From the NCBI GenBank assembly GCA_016865015.1, contig CP018226.1:1705001-1769000 (forward strand): a stretch of 64,000 nt of DNA, given 5' to 3'. A program made the position numbers and the translations under genes. Source of the stretch: Rhizobiales bacterium IMCC20636 (GTDB taxonomy: Bacteria; Pseudomonadota; Alphaproteobacteria; Rhizobiales; GCA-2746425). Shown here in pieces: positions 1 through 24,013 of the stretch. Positions within the stretch are counted from its first letter, which is position 1, and every line of letters starts with the position of its first letter. The notes under the pieces are model-generated. The model had not been told where the DNA came from. It made no database searches and saw only the letters and a list, made by a program, of their open reading frames with translations.

Positions 1-1340
1 TTGGCGCAACGCTGCTGCTGTCCACCGATGTGACGCTGGGCCTGCTGGCCCTGTCCTTCGTGCCATTTGCAGGATGGCGCAGCACGGTGATGCGGCTGGC
101 GTTGCGCCGGACCTGGCTGATCCTGCAGGAACGGCTCGGCGTTCTCAGTCAGGTGATGGAGGAGAACCTGGCCGGTATTCGCGTGGTGCGGGCCTTTGCC
201 TCGTCAGACTTTGAAATGGACAAGTTTGACGTTGCCTCCAAATCGGCGCTGGAACTCAGCCATCAACGGATCGAGACCCGGGTCAAGAACACATCGGCGA
301 TGACGCTGGCCTTCTTTATCTCGATGGGGCTGGTGCTCTATGTCGGCGGGCGTCAGGTGACCTCCGGAGAGATCACGCTGGGCACGCTGGCGACATTCCT
401 GACCTTCATGACCATTTTGCAGATGCCTGTGCGCCAGTTGGGCATGATGGTGAATGGCTATGCCCGTGCCTCGACCTGCGGCGCGCGTCTGTTTGCCCTG
501 ATTGATCACGAGACCGAAATCGACACCGCGCCCGGCGCGCCCGATCTGAAGATCACCAAGGGCACGCTGAAACTGGACCATGTCAGCTTTGCCTATGATG
601 GCGACACAGACAGGCCCGCCGTGTCGGATATCAGCTTTGAGGCCCATAAGGGCGAGACGGTCGGCATTGTCGGCCCGCCCGGCTCGGGCAAAACCACGCT
701 GATGCATCTGATCCCACGGTTTTATGATCCCACACAGGGGAGCATCAGCATTGACGGGCAGGATATTCGCGAGGTCACCCTGTCATCTGTCCGGCGGGCG
801 GTTGCTGTGGTCCAGCAGGACAGTTTCCTGTTCACCACCTCCATCGAGAACAACATTGCCTATGCCAACCCCTTCACGGAAACCCGCGAAATTCGCGGCG
901 TGGCCGAGTCGGCACAATTGCATGATTACATTCTCGGCTTGCCGGGCAAATACGGCACCATTGTCGGCGAGCGCGGTGTCTCCCTGTCCGGCGGCCAGCG
1001 CCAGCGCCTGTCAATTGCGCGCACACTGATGATGAAGCCGGCGGTGCTGATCTTTGACGATTCAACCGCCGCGATTGATGCCGGAACCGAAAACCGCATT
1101 CGCACGGCGCTGAAAGATTATGCCAAGGATTGCGTCACCCTGATCGTGGCGCATCGGCTGGCCAGTCTGATGCATGCCGACAGAATTCTGTTTCTCGAAG
1201 ATGGAAAAATCATCGAGCAGGGCAGCCATGAAGACTTGCTCAAGCTGGGTGGGCGCTACCACGCGCTGCACGCCTTGCAGATGCGCCCCAATACCGAGAT
1301 TGCGGCCGAGAGTCTGGCCGGGAAGGTGGATCAGCCATGA
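1..1340 (+). CDS. ABC exporter half-transporter, heterodimer subunit 1 (5' end outside window)
   Basis: Type IV (exporter-fold) ABC protein with a transmembrane domain followed by an ATPase domain. The reading frame is open to base 1 and the first membrane helices lie upstream, so about 445 residues are visible. The ATPase domain has a Walker A motif (GPPGSGKTT, near nt 672-700) and a canonical signature LSGGQ (near 983-997). Its Walker B is LIFDDS (near 1043-1066), so the catalytic glutamate position holds aspartate. The stop overlaps the start of the next gene (ATGA), and the two half-transporters surely pair. The substrate cannot be told from sequence; MdlAB/LmrCD-like multidrug or lipid export is the usual guess. 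Confidence 0.9.
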   Translation, partial: GATLLLSTDVTLGLLALSFVPFAGWRSTVMRLALRRTWLILQERLGVLSQVMEENLAGIRVVRAFASSDFEMDKFDVASKSALELSHQRIETRVKNTSAMTLAFFISMGLVLYVGGRQVTSGEITLGTLATFLTFMTILQMPVRQLGMMVNGYARASTCGARLFALIDHETEIDTAPGAPDLKITKGTLKLDHVSFAYDGDTDRPAVSDISFEAHKGETVGIVGPPGSGKTTLMHLIPRFYDPTQGSISIDGQDIREVTLSSVRRAVAVVQQDSFLFTTSIENNIAYANPFTETREIRGVAESAQLHDYILGLPGKYGTIVGERGVSLSGGQRQRLSIARTLMMKPAVLIFDDSTAAIDAGTENRIRTALKDYAKDCVTLIVAHRLASLMHADRILFLEDGKIIEQGSHEDLLKLGGRYHALHALQMRPNTEIAAESLAGKVDQP

Positions 1341-3229
1341 GCCAGAGCAAACAGGGAGAGCCGCTCGATCCGCATGAGGATGACCGCCCGCGCATGCGCG
1401 CCGTTGTCGGCTCCGACCGCATCGAGGAAGAGATTTTCGGCCGGGTGTTCGATGGCAAGGTGACCCAGCGGATCTGGCAGTTTGTCCGCCCCTACAGGCG
1501 CAATGTCATCATTTCCGTGGCTTCGGTGGTGACATTCACCCTGTCCCAGCTGACCATCCCGCTGTTGATCCGCTATGCCATCGATACGGGCATGGCACCG
1601 GATGCACCGTCCTCCATCCTGCTGGGAATCGTCGCCCTGTTTGGCGTCATCATTGGCATCAATTACATCGCCTCGCGGGTGCAGGAACTGGTCACCGGCA
1701 AGATGGCCGAGGATGTTCTGTTCGATATGCGGCGCGCCATGTTCAGCCATTTGCAACGGGTGTCCCTGTCCTTCATGGACAAGACCGAGGTCGGGCGGCT
1801 GATGTCGCGCCTGCAGGGCGATGTGAATTCGATGCAGGAATTCCTTGAAACCTCGGTGCTGGCCATCGGTGATCTGCTGCTGCTGTTCGGCATCGTGGCG
1901 GTCATGCTGTGGCTCGACTGGCAACTGGCCCTGATGGTGCTGACGGTGATACCCATCCTGTTCGGTGTGCGCATTCTGTGGCTGAGTCGGGCACGCGCCG
2001 CCTTCATGGCCGCCCATGAGGCCAATTCGATCACCAATGGTGCGCTGGCAGAGGCGATCCATGGGGTGCGCGCCGTCCAGGCGATGGACCGCGCCCGGCT
2101 GAATGGCGAGCTCTACGGCCAGCTTGTTGACAACACCTACAAGGCCCAGTTGCGCGCCTCAAAACTGTCGCAGATCATGATCCCGATTGTCGACACGCTG
2201 ACCGGCAGCGCCATGGCCGTCGTGGCTCTGGCCGGTGGCCTGATGGTGGTTTCCGGGCGGATCGAGGTTGGCGTCATGGTGGCGTTTCTGTTCTACATCC
2301 AGCGCTTCTTTGATCCCATCCGCTCGCTGACCATGCAATATTCGGTGATGCAGCGCGCCATGGCGTCCGGTCACCGGCTGACCGAGGTTCTGGATGTCGA
2401 GGTGGATGTCAGGGATGCCGAAGATGCGACACCGCTGGGCGATGATGATGACGGGTCGGTTGAATTCCGCAATGTGACCTTTGGTTACAATCCCGAACAC
2501 CCCGTGCTGAAAGATGTCAGCTTCCGCGTGAAATCCGGTGAGACGGTGGCGCTGGTCGGTCCGACCGGTTCGGGAAAATCAAGCTCGATGGCGCTGATCC
2601 ACCGGTTTTACGATGTGCAGGAGGGCGCGGTTCTGGTGGGCGGGCGCGATGTGCGCGATGTCACACAAAAGAGCCTGGGACGTCATATCGCGATGGTGCT
2701 GCAGGAACCGTATTTGTTCACCGGCACCGTGCGGGAGAACATCCGCTATGCCACGGACTGGGCTGATGACGCAGCAGTGGTGGAAGCTGCAATCGCTGTC
2801 GGCGCCCATGATTTCATCGAGGCCTTGCCACAGGGCTATGACACGATGCTGGCCGAACGGGGCAGCAATCTCAGCCTTGGCCAGCGCCAGCTTCTGAGTT
2901 TTGCCCGTGCGCTGGTGACGGATGCGAAAATCCTGATCATGGATGAAGCAACCGCCAACATTGACAGTTACACCGAAATGCAGATTCAAAAAGCGCTGCA
3001 GCGGCTGCTGGAAGGCCGTACCGGCCTGGTGATCGCCCACCGCCTCGCCACGATCCGCAATGCTGATCGCATTCTGGTGTTGCAGCAGGGCCAGATCATA
3101 GAGCAGGGCGACCATGACTCCCTCATCGACCATGGCGGCCTTTATGCGCAACTCTACCAACTCAATTACGCCAGCTTCGACGACATCCCCGAAGCTCTGA
3201 CCGACAAAGACCGCTCACTTGCGACTTGA
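1337..3229 (+). CDS. ABC exporter half-transporter, heterodimer subunit 2
   Basis: Full-length 630-residue half-transporter in the inner membrane, partner of the preceding gene through a 4-bp ATGA overlap. Six membrane helices lie at about residues 55-330, then an ATPase domain from about 380. Walker A is GPTGSGKSS (around residue 407), the signature is the degenerate LSLGQ (around 512), and Walker B is the complete ILIMDEATANID (around 533). It thus supplies the good Walker motifs while subunit 1 supplies the good signature, the pattern of asymmetric heterodimeric exporters with one active and one degenerate ATP site. A charged N-terminal tail of about 50 residues precedes the first helix. 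Substrate unknown. Confidence 0.92.
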   Translation: MSQSKQGEPLDPHEDDRPRMRAVVGSDRIEEEIFGRVFDGKVTQRIWQFVRPYRRNVIISVASVVTFTLSQLTIPLLIRYAIDTGMAPDAPSSILLGIVALFGVIIGINYIASRVQELVTGKMAEDVLFDMRRAMFSHLQRVSLSFMDKTEVGRLMSRLQGDVNSMQEFLETSVLAIGDLLLLFGIVAVMLWLDWQLALMVLTVIPILFGVRILWLSRARAAFMAAHEANSITNGALAEAIHGVRAVQAMDRARLNGELYGQLVDNTYKAQLRASKLSQIMIPIVDTLTGSAMAVVALAGGLMVVSGRIEVGVMVAFLFYIQRFFDPIRSLTMQYSVMQRAMASGHRLTEVLDVEVDVRDAEDATPLGDDDDGSVEFRNVTFGYNPEHPVLKDVSFRVKSGETVALVGPTGSGKSSSMALIHRFYDVQEGAVLVGGRDVRDVTQKSLGRHIAMVLQEPYLFTGTVRENIRYATDWADDAAVVEAAIAVGAHDFIEALPQGYDTMLAERGSNLSLGQRQLLSFARALVTDAKILIMDEATANIDSYTEMQIQKALQRLLEGRTGLVIAHRLATIRNADRILVLQQGQIIEQGDHDSLIDHGGLYAQLYQLNYASFDDIPEALTDKDRSLAT

Positions 3230-17006: not shown

Positions 17007-17148
17007 ACTCCGAAGCTCATGGTTATTGAGTTGTTACAAATTTAGTTAAAATTCTAAACAAATTCGATTTAAAAGTACATCTGATTTTTGGCGTGATGTA
17101 AAATCATGGCAGGTATTCTGACCTCAATTGAAATATGGGTCTGAGTAC

Positions 17149-17769
17149 ATGAAATACTTGAAGCGTTCTCTTTTGTTTGGTTTTATTGTTGCTTTTTCAG
17201 CGGTTGAGCATTCCGATGCCAGAGATGTCAATACTGCCTTCATGGCGGTGACCGGCAAGACGCGACCTCCGATCGGTCATGTCAAATTCTGCCGGGTCAA
17301 TCCCCAACAGTGTCGGTCACAGGTCAGTCAGGATCGTGCAATGGCGCTGACCCAGGCCCGCTGGGATGAACTCATTCAGATCAATTATCAGGTCAACCAG
17401 GCGGTTCTGCCTGTTTCGGATATGGATCTGTATGCACAGCCGGAAGTTTGGGCGTTCCCTGACAGATATGGCGATTGCGAAGATTATGTGCTTCTCAAGC
17501 GCTATCAATTGATGCAGGCCGGGTGGCCTGCCGGGAGCCTGTTGATTACCGTGGTTCGCGATATTGACGGTGGCGGCCACGCCGTATTGACAGTCAGGAC
17601 AGACCGGGGGGATTTCATCCTCGATAATCAGGAAGCGCTGATCAAACATTGGACCGAGACGCCTTACAACTATCTCAAACGCCAATCCAGCAAACATGCA
17701 GGCAAATGGGTTTCCGTGGCGGACCAGCGTGATGTTCATGCGCTGGCAGTGACAGGCAGCACCGATTAG
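17149..17769 (+). CDS. Transglutaminase-like cysteine peptidase (BTLCP family)
   Basis: Secreted protein of 206 residues belonging to the bacterial transglutaminase-like cysteine peptidases (PF06035). A signal peptide (about 1-22) is followed by the papain-like triad: cysteine in YGDCEDYVLLKR, histidine in GGGHAVLTV, aspartate in DFILDNQ. LapG, the best-studied relative, cleaves a periplasmic adhesin domain under c-di-GMP control, but no LapD or adhesin gene is next to it here. ATG at 17149 is chosen because it begins the signal peptide; an in-frame TTG lies 21 bases upstream. Confidence 0.88.
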   Translation: MKYLKRSLLFGFIVAFSAVEHSDARDVNTAFMAVTGKTRPPIGHVKFCRVNPQQCRSQVSQDRAMALTQARWDELIQINYQVNQAVLPVSDMDLYAQPEVWAFPDRYGDCEDYVLLKRYQLMQAGWPAGSLLITVVRDIDGGGHAVLTVRTDRGDFILDNQEALIKHWTETPYNYLKRQSSKHAGKWVSVADQRDVHALAVTGSTD

Positions 17770-19039: not shown

Positions 19040-19217
19040 TTCAAACTCCTGATCGGCAAGCCGGGATCAATGATCTCATATCATAGGCCATTTGCATGGG
19101 CTTCGGCCAGTTCACTCTGCTGCATGGAGATAATGCATATCTCAAGTGAGGCAAGCTGAATGACTGACATTTTGCACAAAGCGACCTATATACTGACACG
19201 ACTGGTCATCAATTTTG

Positions 19218-19700
19218 ATGTCGCAAGAGCAAAAACAGGCATTTTCGGGGATGATTGACGAAATCTATAACGCAAAGATCCTGGAGTTTGCCGGGAATAT
19301 TCCGTGTATTGGGACGCTGAATGCGCCTGATGCCTCGGCAAAGGCTCATTCCAAATTATGCGGCTCCACCATTTCGGTGGATCTGAAGGTCGACGAAGGA
19401 CTCATCACAGATTTTGCTCAGGAAGTGAAGGCCTGCGCGCTGGGTCAATCATCGGCTTCCATCGTGGCGGCTAACATTATTGGTGCCAGCGCGGATGAGA
19501 TGCGCGCCTTGAAGGCGACCATGTATGCGATGCTGAAAGAGGGTGGGCAGCCGCCGGAAGGTCGTTTTGAAGCGCTGAAATTTCTGGAGCCGGTGCGAGA
19601 CTATCGGGCGCGCCATGCATCCACCCTGTTGATTTTTGATGCTGTGGTTGATTCGCTGGATCAGATTGAAGCAAAGCGAACGGTCAAGACGACGGGCTGA
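19218..19700 (+). CDS. IscU/NifU-like iron-sulfur scaffold protein (third cysteine absent)
   Basis: Homologue of SUF-type SufU/IscU scaffolds, 160 residues, cytoplasmic. Two of the three cluster-ligand cysteines are visible (KLCGSTI and KACALGQSSAS). At the third position, where scaffolds have R-x-x-C-A-T-L, this protein reads RARHASTLLIF, so the cysteine is replaced. The two other ligand regions and the length fit the family. ATG at 19218 follows an in-frame TTG. It is followed by a convergent membrane protein, then yidD and thrS. It may be a carrier or a regulatory homologue and not a true scaffold. Confidence 0.85.
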   Translation: MSQEQKQAFSGMIDEIYNAKILEFAGNIPCIGTLNAPDASAKAHSKLCGSTISVDLKVDEGLITDFAQEVKACALGQSSASIVAANIIGASADEMRALKATMYAMLKEGGQPPEGRFEALKFLEPVRDYRARHASTLLIFDAVVDSLDQIEAKRTVKTTG

Positions 19701-19724: not shown

Positions 19725-20363
19725 TTAGAAGTGGCCCGTAACCTTGTAATGGGCACTCAGATAGACTTCCGGCGGTATGCGGTTCTGGATGCTTTCGACC
19801 ATGTCCGAAAACGGGTCCTCGCCAACTTCGCCCAATGCAACATAGGTCTGTTCATCTGCTGCAGATTCGGTGTTGAGAGGATTGGCAAACACCCTGAGAT
19901 CAAGGTTTTTTAGTTCGCCAATGAGCAGATTGGCAGCGGTTTGCATCAGCCGTTCGTCGGACACATCATTGTAAATCCTGAAGACATGAACCACATCAGT
20001 CGCATCAAGGCCGATGATGGAAGGCCGCAGGGTCAATTCCTCGACAGTCCATGGGGGGATCAGATCGGTCAGCTTTTGGGTCAACCCGTCAATTGATGTT
20101 CCAAAGCTTGCAGGCTCAACAGTGATGGTCGATAGGCCTGGCAGATTGTGCGACCGGATACGGCCCAAGCCGCCCCCGTCTTCCAGGGTATGTAAAATCG
20201 GTTCGGTGATCAGTCTTTCGATGCGGGCAGGGTCGTCTGAATCAGCGGGTGTCAGGACGTAAATCAGCTTGCCGGTGTTGCCAGCCATCCAGTTCCAGAC
20301 AATGCCAAGGATGATGGCAATGCCGACTGCAGGAATCAGTATGTTAAGTTGGCGACGTGTCAT
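19725..20363 (-). CDS. Single-TM protein resembling an isolated RND porter subdomain
   Basis: Unannotated 212-residue protein with one N-terminal membrane helix (about 7-27) and a soluble, presumably periplasmic body. The body reads like the first porter (PN) subdomain of RND exporters: ITEPILHTLED and a GLGRIRSHNLPGLSTITVE stretch, then GTSIDGLTQKL, IPPWTVEELTLRP, and a second beta-alpha-beta unit (VVHVFRIYNDVSDERLMQTAANLL). RND proteins have the same order (PIE-x-x-L, G-x-x-IRS, G-x-S-x-ITV, GTD-x-D, then the DP-ILxLAL strand). There are no further helices or docking domain. Family assignment is by eye only. Confidence 0.6.
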   Translation of the reverse strand: MTRRQLNILIPAVGIAIILGIVWNWMAGNTGKLIYVLTPADSDDPARIERLITEPILHTLEDGGGLGRIRSHNLPGLSTITVEPASFGTSIDGLTQKLTDLIPPWTVEELTLRPSIIGLDATDVVHVFRIYNDVSDERLMQTAANLLIGELKNLDLRVFANPLNTESAADEQTYVALGEVGEDPFSDMVESIQNRIPPEVYLSAHYKVTGHF

Positions 20364-20386
20364 AATAATAAGAATGCCGTGATTTT

Positions 20387-20764
20387 ATGAAACAGACAAG
20401 ACGGAGCGTGTGTTCCGACCCGCCAATGATGAAAAAAACCAACGCTCTCTTTTTTCGAAAATGGCCGAGATATATTGGGCTTGGCCTGATCACTTTCTAT
20501 CAGAAAGTTATTTCTCCGCTCCTTGGATCATCCTGCCGCTATGCGCCGACCTGTTCATCGTATGGAGCCGAATGCATTTCCCGGTTTGGATTATGGGCGG
20601 GCGGATGGATGACATTGGCCAGATTCAGCCGATGTAACCCGTTTGGTGCGTCCGGCCATGACCCGGCGCCATTGACGCTGCCGTCAAACGCGGTGTGGTT
20701 TTTGCCATGGCGTTATGGCCGCTGGACGGGCCGACATATTGACCCGGCAACCCGACTGGACTGA
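20387..20764 (+). CDS. yidD: Membrane protein insertion efficiency factor YidD
   Basis: Small membrane-associated protein that assists YidC-dependent insertion. The 125-residue protein contains the full family signature: FYQKVISPLLGSSCRYAPTC, then SSYGAECISRFG, GGWMTLARFSRCNPFG. About 25 N-terminal and 30 C-terminal residues are outside the domain; an in-frame ATG at 20426 would give a more typical start. Located upstream of thrS, as in many alphaproteobacteria, and not with rpmH-rnpA. Confidence 0.9.
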   Translation: MKQTRRSVCSDPPMMKKTNALFFRKWPRYIGLGLITFYQKVISPLLGSSCRYAPTCSSYGAECISRFGLWAGGWMTLARFSRCNPFGASGHDPAPLTLPSNAVWFLPWRYGRWTGRHIDPATRLD

Positions 20765-23019: not shown

Positions 23020-23571
23020 CTATTCGGCGGCCTTGTGGTCCATCTTCATGTCGCCATTCATGGTTTTGCCATCAGACATGCCGTTTTTCTTGTGCATGTC
23101 ATGCGCGGCTCCGCCGCTAAAGCCCACAACCTCCAGATCGACGTCCACCTTGCCTGCTTTTTCAAACTCCAGGGTGATTTGTTGCACATCACCTTCATTG
23201 AGCGGTGTGGAAATCGACATGAACATCAGATGAAACGAGCCGGGTTTCAGCTCCACGGTCCCACCGGCTGGAATCTCCAGACCGCCGGGAACCGGGCTCA
23301 TTTTCATCACATCATTTATAACTTCCATTTTGTGGATTTCCACATGATCGGCAAAGCTGGCGCTGGCACCAATGATGCGGTCGGTTTCAGTGCCGTTATT
23401 GGTGATGGTCAGATAGCCACCAGCCACCTTGGCATTTGGCGGTGTGGCACGGGCATAGGGGTGATCAATAATTAGGTCGCCCAGCGTGAAGTTTTGGGCG
23501 GTGGTTGGCAGAATCTGGATGAGTGTTGCCAGCACGGCAAACGCAGCAATTTTGATAAAGGACACGGTCAT
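23020..23571 (-). CDS. Copper chaperone PCu(A)C domain protein
   Basis: Periplasmic copper(I) carrier of about 183 residues that helps load the CuA site of cytochrome oxidase. After a signal peptide (about 1-25) come the family motifs: HPYARATPPNAKVAGGYLTI, then HVEIHKMEVINDVMKM and FHLMFM, which hold the His/Met copper ligands. A Met/His/Lys tail (AAHDMHKKNGMSDGKTMNGD) could bind more copper. GGAG touches the ATG at 23571 but is well spaced from GTG at 23565, so the exact start is open. The reading frame runs on upstream only as a shadow of the DUF2946 gene. Confidence 0.88.
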   Translation of the reverse strand: MTVSFIKIAAFAVLATLIQILPTTAQNFTLGDLIIDHPYARATPPNAKVAGGYLTITNNGTETDRIIGASASFADHVEIHKMEVINDVMKMSPVPGGLEIPAGGTVELKPGSFHLMFMSISTPLNEGDVQQITLEFEKAGKVDVDLEVVGFSGGAAHDMHKKNGMSDGKTMNGDMKMDHKAAE

Positions 23572-23641
23572 CTCCAAAGATGTATTTTTGAATTTTGTAA
23601 CTGGATTGTTGTTCTGAAGAGCGTTCGGGCTTTTCAGAAAA

Positions 23642-24013
23642 TCAAGCAAGTGATGGAGGACCGCGAAGCGGCGTGGCCGGTTGGAAAACGGCGCGCGGCA
23701 GAACAACTGCACCGATTTTAAACTTTTCGATTTCAATGAATCTGGTGCATTCGCTGTGTGTTGCGCATGGTGGCGCAACATTGGCTCCATGGGCGATGCG
23801 GCAGAATTCACATGGCGGACTGACGGTCTGGTGGTCGCCTGCCGGACTGTAAAGGCAGAGGCTGAGAACCGTGCCATCGGGCAGGGTGTATTGCGAAACC
23901 TTGGTGCCGCCTTCGGCCAATGCCACAGGCTGATGCGCAAAGGCAGCCAGAATGATGGCACAGGCACAGCAGATGCGAATCCACATCAGTTGCTTGTTTT
24001 CAATCCTGCGCAC
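23642..24013 (-). CDS. DUF2946 family protein
   Basis: Small exported or membrane-anchored protein of 123 residues with an N-terminal hydrophobic segment (about 10-32), a CEFCRIAHG cysteine pair and the C-terminal RGPPS motif that ends many DUF2946 proteins. The family is often found near PCu(A)C and TonB/copper genes, and here it lies 70 bp upstream of the PCu(A)C gene on the same strand, so a copper role is plausible. Start GTG 24013 or ATG 23986; neither has a good ribosome-binding site. Confidence 0.7.
   Translation of the reverse strand: MRRIENKQLMWIRICCACAIILAAFAHQPVALAEGGTKVSQYTLPDGTVLSLCLYSPAGDHQTVSPPCEFCRIAHGANVAPPCATHSECTRFIEIEKFKIGAVVLPRAVFQPATPLRGPPSLA

Follow-up and report, generated by a model that had tools for sequence, protein, structure and literature searches.

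A window of 64,000 nucleotides from Rhizobiales bacterium IMCC20636 (contig CP018226.1, positions 1,705,001 to 1,769,000; "window" refers to the whole stretch of DNA that was analyzed) contains a gene for a 212-residue protein with a single predicted membrane helix. The source genome consists of one contig of 4.79 Mb. An earlier annotation made from the letters alone, referred to here as the original prediction, had compared this protein to PN1, a porter subdomain of the resistance-nodulation-division (RND) transporters. The gene is flanked by 2 genes on the opposite strand: one encoding a NifU-like Fe-S scaffold (19215-19700, plus strand; PF01592, E 6.9e-7), with which it is convergent, and yidD (20387-20764, plus strand; PF01809, E 7.5e-26), from which it is divergent. 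The features assigned to the gene are given below in window coordinates, where TM1 denotes the first transmembrane helix of RND permeases.

19725..20363, minus strand: coding sequence of the 212-residue single-helix protein with 2 tandem ferredoxin-like modules (open reading frame with ATG start, orthologs in 5/5 genomes, AlphaFold prediction)
20286..20342, minus strand: membrane helix, residues 8-26, TM1 equivalent (hydropathy; HHalign alignment with RND TM1 and PN1 that starts at residue 6 or 10)
20049..20276, minus strand: PN1-related module, residues 30-105 (profile matches, AlphaFold, HHalign, and a second profile aligner)
19728..20006, minus strand: second ferredoxin-like module, residues 120-212, with predicted PN2 topology lacking the docking insertion (folding alone; conservation)
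20371..20399, minus strand: possible promoter of the gene (TTGTCT at 20399-20394, 17 nt, CATTCT at 20376-20371)

The motifs named in the original prediction are all present in the protein, in the order in which they were listed, and are read from the minus strand. A single strongly hydrophobic segment was found at residues 8-26 (Kyte-Doolittle 19-mer value 2.15, with a maximum of 0.98 beyond residue 36). The other 4 orthologs showed a hydropathy peak of 2.26-2.38 and a later maximum of 0.90-1.42, giving one segment in 5/5, in agreement with the single helix that had been proposed. The residues MTRRQ ahead of the helix suggest that the N-terminus lies inside and that the remainder of the protein is periplasmic. 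In the AlphaFold model, where confidence is below 50 at residues 1-30, the strands and helices of the first module are predicted at residues 32-39, 45-63, 66-74, 77-84, and 91-101, followed by a second ferredoxin-like module at approximately residues 125-205. The ferredoxin fold anticipated for this protein is predicted twice. The stretch ATDVVHVFRI, which had been counted as part of PN1, instead begins the second predicted domain. Likewise, the protein had been described as nothing but PN1, while its carboxyl-terminal half is filled by the second module, for which no sequence link to RND was demonstrated.

The relationship of the first half to RND permeases, as suspected originally, was supported by profile comparisons. 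Using a profile of the 5 orthologs of the genus (A1) and one of 18 RND N-termini, HHalign aligned residues 10-105 to residues 23-124 of the permease at locus L016 (97.7%, E 1.8e-12, score 88.4), while the best of 100 column shuffles scored 21.6. A second profile aligner returned a score of 30.8 (z 22), which was reached by 0/100 shuffles and compares with 7.5 for the reversed profile. Sequence identity to TM1 and PN1 of L016 was 28-29% over residues 6/10-105. By these alignments, residues 10-105 share descent with RND TM1 and PN1, and the narrow spread of the small protein suggests that it is the derived form. The best profile matches within the order reached E 6.6e-9 per genome. All 10 frames chosen from the matching loci were assigned to PF00873 (ACR_tran) by Pfam; their best NCBIfam match, NF033617 (RND_permease_2), scored below the cut-off in 10/10, since the locus edge truncates these frames. 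The only plasmid match (E 6e-3) carries the annotation "efflux RND transporter permease subunit", and PHROG 7301 (1035 positions, no annotation) was matched by 5/5 orthologs (best E 2.1e-4).

Residues found in the majority of RND proteins and kept in at least 4/5 orthologs include T38, P39, E49, T53, L60, and S78. Features lost relative to RND proteins include the EDP that follows TM1, the PGA loop, and the WSEIRDA stretch at 6 of its 7 positions. Judging by position, the WSEIRDA helix, which is the second PN1 helix, would correspond to the central pore helix of AcrB; PN1 supplies the pore helices of RND transporters (PMC8277102). This pattern fits a fold that was kept while features of the pump and its interface were given up, and the loss of pump-interface residues makes insertion into an RND trimer less likely. 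The source genome encodes 7 ACR_tran permease frames, one of which was matched in 2 pieces, and none lies beside the single-helix gene. The single-helix gene itself was not among the matches of this genome search. These resident permeases scored at most 15.3 bits with A1, compared to 29.7-33.9 bits for 3 permeases from outside.

Neither Pfam nor NCBIfam yielded a family for the window protein, none of the 5 orthologs (0/5) matched PF00873 even at E <= 10, and 2 weak Pfam matches were found among the orthologs, each in one member. A single-sequence search of the PDB gave one chance-level match. The profile search of the PDB returned MexK in register, though at a nonsignificant E of 0.53-0.54 and ranked below an aminotransferase (0.31). 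Among viral contigs there were 17 pattern matches, none of which was confirmed, and fold matches in BFVD were weak; PHROG also returned terminases, and these matches (best E 0.3) were attributed to chance. At the level of titles and abstracts, no paper on a free-standing TM1-PN1 protein was found in the open-access literature.

Matches to A1 were then compared across overlapping samples of genomes from the order, class, and phylum. Within the order, 92 of 397 genomes matched at E <= 0.001. Besides the 5 orthologs, 88 genomes, including one of the genus itself, contributed 97 matches. Frames of 1,025-1,378 amino acids hold 94 of these matches; the 3 in short frames are at contig ends (L019, L082) or split by a frame change (L030). 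In the class sample, 48/385 genomes matched, and all 52 matches other than the gene itself lie in frames of 930-1,479 amino acids. The phylum sample had matches in 134/398 genomes. Among the matches listed there, 12 fall in frames shorter than 900 amino acids, including those at contig ends (L081, L083, L084, L085, L086, L087, L088, and L092) and those in overlapping or split RND genes (L080, L089, and L090). Across the samples, the 15 short-frame matches comprise 10 at contig ends, 4 in split frames, and 1 in a non-RND protein; all others lie in frames of 901-1,479 amino acids, and no free-standing form was present outside the genus among the matches listed. The free-standing architecture, which the original prediction had called unusual, was found in 5/5 sampled genomes of the genus and in no other genome examined. 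Outside the genus, most of the matches listed lie in RND-length frames; within it, the orthologs stand alone (5/5).

Two RND loci recovered in these searches have features of their own. At L080 (649-3761, minus strand), in a single-contig genome, a CusA/CzcA-like RND permease is encoded by 2 overlapping frames of 251 and 786 amino acids, representing either a frameshift or a natural split. At L076 (1-3084, minus strand), approximately 430 residues precede the RND TM1 in a frame of 1,479 amino acids; the permease may here be fused to a different protein, possibly an adaptor.

The full-length gene was found in single copy in 5/5 genomes of the genus, which is the whole family as sampled, and the 4 orthologs share 85, 83, 64, and 45% identity with the window protein. 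In all 5 genomes the gene adjoins yidD, and in 4/5 it directly adjoins the nifU-like gene. In the fifth and most distant member of the genus (L005), an open reading frame that appears ferritin-like by eye (901-1428, plus strand) separates the nifU-like gene from the single-helix gene; it would represent another insertion event at this site. A search for yidD found it in 58/61 genomes, and the comparison returned 30 loci, 5 from the genus and 25 from elsewhere. None of the 25 (0/25) showed the gene within approximately 1.5 kb on either side (tblastn, E 1e-4). Both nifU and yidD were present at 20 of these 25 loci, with the matched parts overlapping or at most ~170 bases apart in 17. The other 3 (L036, L040, and L058) carry different genes in the gap (YHS-type, GNAT plus HD-type, and cupin-type by eye), which suggests that this spot receives insertions repeatedly. 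Further outward, thrS lies past yidD, while folE and a hexapeptide-repeat gene lie past nifU. As folE, nifU, yidD, and thrS are already grouped in other families without the single-helix gene, the latter appears to have been inserted into a preexisting folE-nifU-yidD-thrS block. Taken alone, its Fe-S and yidD neighbors provide no functional clue. The neighbors named in the original prediction were confirmed, but the position it had called odd gives little indication of function.

Several lines of evidence show that the gene has been maintained. The reading frame is intact, with 212 or 213 codons in all 5 species. The ratio of nonsynonymous to synonymous substitution rates (dN/dS, Nei-Gojobori) was 0.073, 0.065, and 0.069 for the 3 closest pairs, and 0.11-0.32 for 5 more distant pairs with dS above 1.3; dS was undefined for the remaining 2. 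When the closest 3 pairs were split by half, dN/dS was 0.018 and 0.027 for the second half (one undefined) and 0.13-0.19 for the first. The second half also had the higher amino acid identity in 10/10 pairs, and contains the stretches HVFRIYNDVSDE, LRVF, QTYVALG, and IPPE, which are invariant in 5/5 orthologs. Within the helix, 9 of the 19 residues are invariant in 5/5. GC content and GC content at third codon positions (GC3) resemble those of the neighboring genes. By these signs of selection and composition, the single-helix gene is a functioning gene.

Taken together, we estimate a probability of roughly 0.6 that the protein is a domesticated RND N-terminus that acts as a membrane-anchored, non-transporting periplasmic module for binding or regulation. 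The start of an RND permease gene (HAE-1/HME-like), encoding TM1 and PN1, would have been acquired or kept by an ancestor of the genus as a gene in its own right, located between nifU and yidD. The product would be a bitopic protein of the inner membrane with a periplasmic head of 2 ferredoxin-like (PD) modules, the first related to PN1 and the second either a highly diverged PN2 minus the docking insertion or a ferredoxin-like domain unrelated to PN2. The conserved second domain would then likely form the binding or working surface. RND permeases have about 12 membrane helices in 2 repeats, with proton-relay residues in TM4. Like these permeases (AcrB/AcrD/AcrF, PF00873), the protein consists of a helix followed by a porter module, in the same order. 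Unlike them, it has 212 rather than ~1,050 residues, one hydrophobic segment in all 5 orthologs, and no TM4-type helix for proton-relay residues; the docking domain, the carboxyl-terminal half, and a match to PF00873 are likewise absent. With a single helix and no polytopic pump part, it should not transport by itself. It also differs from the porters that carry PD modules (RND, MmpL, HpnN, and SecDF; PMC8277102) in standing outside a polytopic transporter.

More tentatively, the 5 orthologs may represent a new RND-derived family of non-transporting single-helix envelope proteins (TM1-PN1-PN2, without docking domain) that came to serve as a regulatory or accessory subunit. Porter subdomains of RND proteins are familiar as components of polytopic pumps, and a free-standing TM1-PN1 under selection would show reuse of the module: if the reading is correct, a porter half-loop can exist under selection apart from a transporter. 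It would also offer a small two-domain object with which to ask what PN1 does without a transporter. The scope is narrow, comprising 5 genomes of one genus.

A number of observations weigh against a domesticated RND N-terminus. Single-sequence matches were marginal, so that the RND homology rests on the profile: 3 RND N-termini had per-genome E values of 5.8e-4 to 5e-3, alongside 2 matches that are non-RND by eye (a cobalamin-type enzyme at L009 and a frame antisense to an ABC permease at L010). At the phylum level, L091 matched within a chemoreceptor-like frame, also non-RND by eye. The best Pfam match of the orthologs was to DUF6715 (1/5, E 0.0028). In 10/10 pairs conservation is lower in the PN1-like half, and the column conservation of this half does not correlate with that of RND proteins (Spearman 0.06, n = 100); together, these 2 findings argue against a main role in PN1-type contacts. 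A Foldseek search with the whole model, the check envisaged originally, did return RND proteins in 21 of the 50 rows listed, with alignments of 283-335 columns for the 212-residue query. However, superposition on these was poor (TMq 0.30-0.40, rmsd 11-21 Å), and the top matches were engineered tandem ferredoxins. Finally, no link of the second half to PN2 exceeded the controls, either with HHalign on sub-stretches or with our own profile aligner.

This last point gives rise to the strongest competing explanation, in which PN1 was fused to an unrelated ferredoxin-like domain and the second half does not derive from PN2; we consider its chances only somewhat short of even. Prediction of residues 118-212 alone gave pLDDT 87.6 and pTM 0.80; in the AlphaFold model of the protein, approximately 10 residues lie between the strands at 157-160 and 171-177. 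In the porter module of RND proteins, PN1 is continuous, while in PN2 the funnel insertion separates strand 2 from strand 3 (PMC8277102). The modeled second module has the place, order, and topology expected of PN2 minus this insertion, with only a short loop joining these 2 strands, and the length of the whole-protein Foldseek alignments to RND likewise counts against a fusion. With the second half alone, however, Foldseek listed ordinary ferredoxin-like folds, with no RND protein among the 50 rows listed. Comparison of this half to our own full-length RND sequences, and as an internal repeat, gave no support for PN2 above controls, and shuffling columns 106-212 with the first half held fixed did not lower the HHalign score. 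A profile of the second half, searched against the 385 genomes of the class, found its own gene and 3 matches at E 0.008-0.009, none above chance outside the genus. Conversely, 3/8 HHalign outputs in an anchored test ran into PN2, to residues 153-164, whereas shuffles passed residue 140 in 0-2/40, and some A1 matches in genomes of the order, class, and phylum extended to residues 137-157. The register of a weak match to PN2b is also as expected, pairing residues 186-207 with L016 308-329, although 13/300 shuffles reached this match and the reversed profile scored higher. As the anchored alignments lengthen without a gain in score, we keep both identities for the second half: a highly diverged PN2 lacking the docking insertion, or another domain of ferredoxin-like fold.

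A special case of the domesticated N-terminus is that the PN1-like head and the TM1-like helix dock on one of the 7 resident RND permeases and tune its assembly or activity; the original prediction had called the protein a possible accessory or regulator of a transporter. Small single-helix proteins such as AcrZ and MmpS are partners of RND pumps, and the protein resembles them in having one membrane helix and perhaps in binding to a pump. To our knowledge, such partners are not RND-derived, and the single-helix gene differs from theirs in having no pump gene next to it. The presence of resident permeases, the relationship to both TM1 and PN1, and the invariant helix residues are consistent with docking. 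Nevertheless, we regard it as rather unlikely, given the loss of the RND-conserved stretch from the second PN1 helix and the lower A1 scores of the resident permeases relative to those from outside. Moreover, defective AcrB or AcrA overexpressed in E. coli is described as leaving the pump unpoisoned (PMC8300762).

It is highly improbable that the gene is a decaying remnant of an RND gene. Its relatives in genomes beyond the genus belong to the RND permeases, so the trimmed fragment proposed originally may describe its origin. As a decaying copy, however, it would not be expected to keep its length, place, and sequence across 5 species with dN/dS as low as 0.065-0.073 in close pairs and neighbor-like GC and GC3; no RND match lies next to it in the source genome, and split RND genes look different (L030, L080, L089, L090). 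A helix and ferredoxin-like fold that arose by convergence, without any relation to RND, is equally improbable: the PD/ferredoxin fold is common (PMC8277102) and the protein itself has no ACR_tran match, but column shuffles and the reversed profile scored far lower, and most profile matches lie in RND-length frames, with 10/10 of those sent to Pfam being RND.

Upstream of the gene, the possible promoter ends 7 nt ahead of the ATG, and the plus-strand blocks AGACAAG and ATGCC within this region are invariant in 5/5. A consensus promoter scan gave another, overlapping site (20391-20362), and sites were no more frequent than in shuffles (2 versus a mean of 1.6), for which reason we infer this promoter only provisionally. 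The invariant promoter-like blocks lie 6-7 nt from the ATG in 3 of the 5 species, in which the mRNA may therefore be leaderless; in the other 2, an insertion of ~50 nt intervenes. Elsewhere in the window, a Peptidase_C93 (BTLCP) gene and a gene for a PCu(A)C copper chaperone lie nearby (17128-17769 and 23020-23967).
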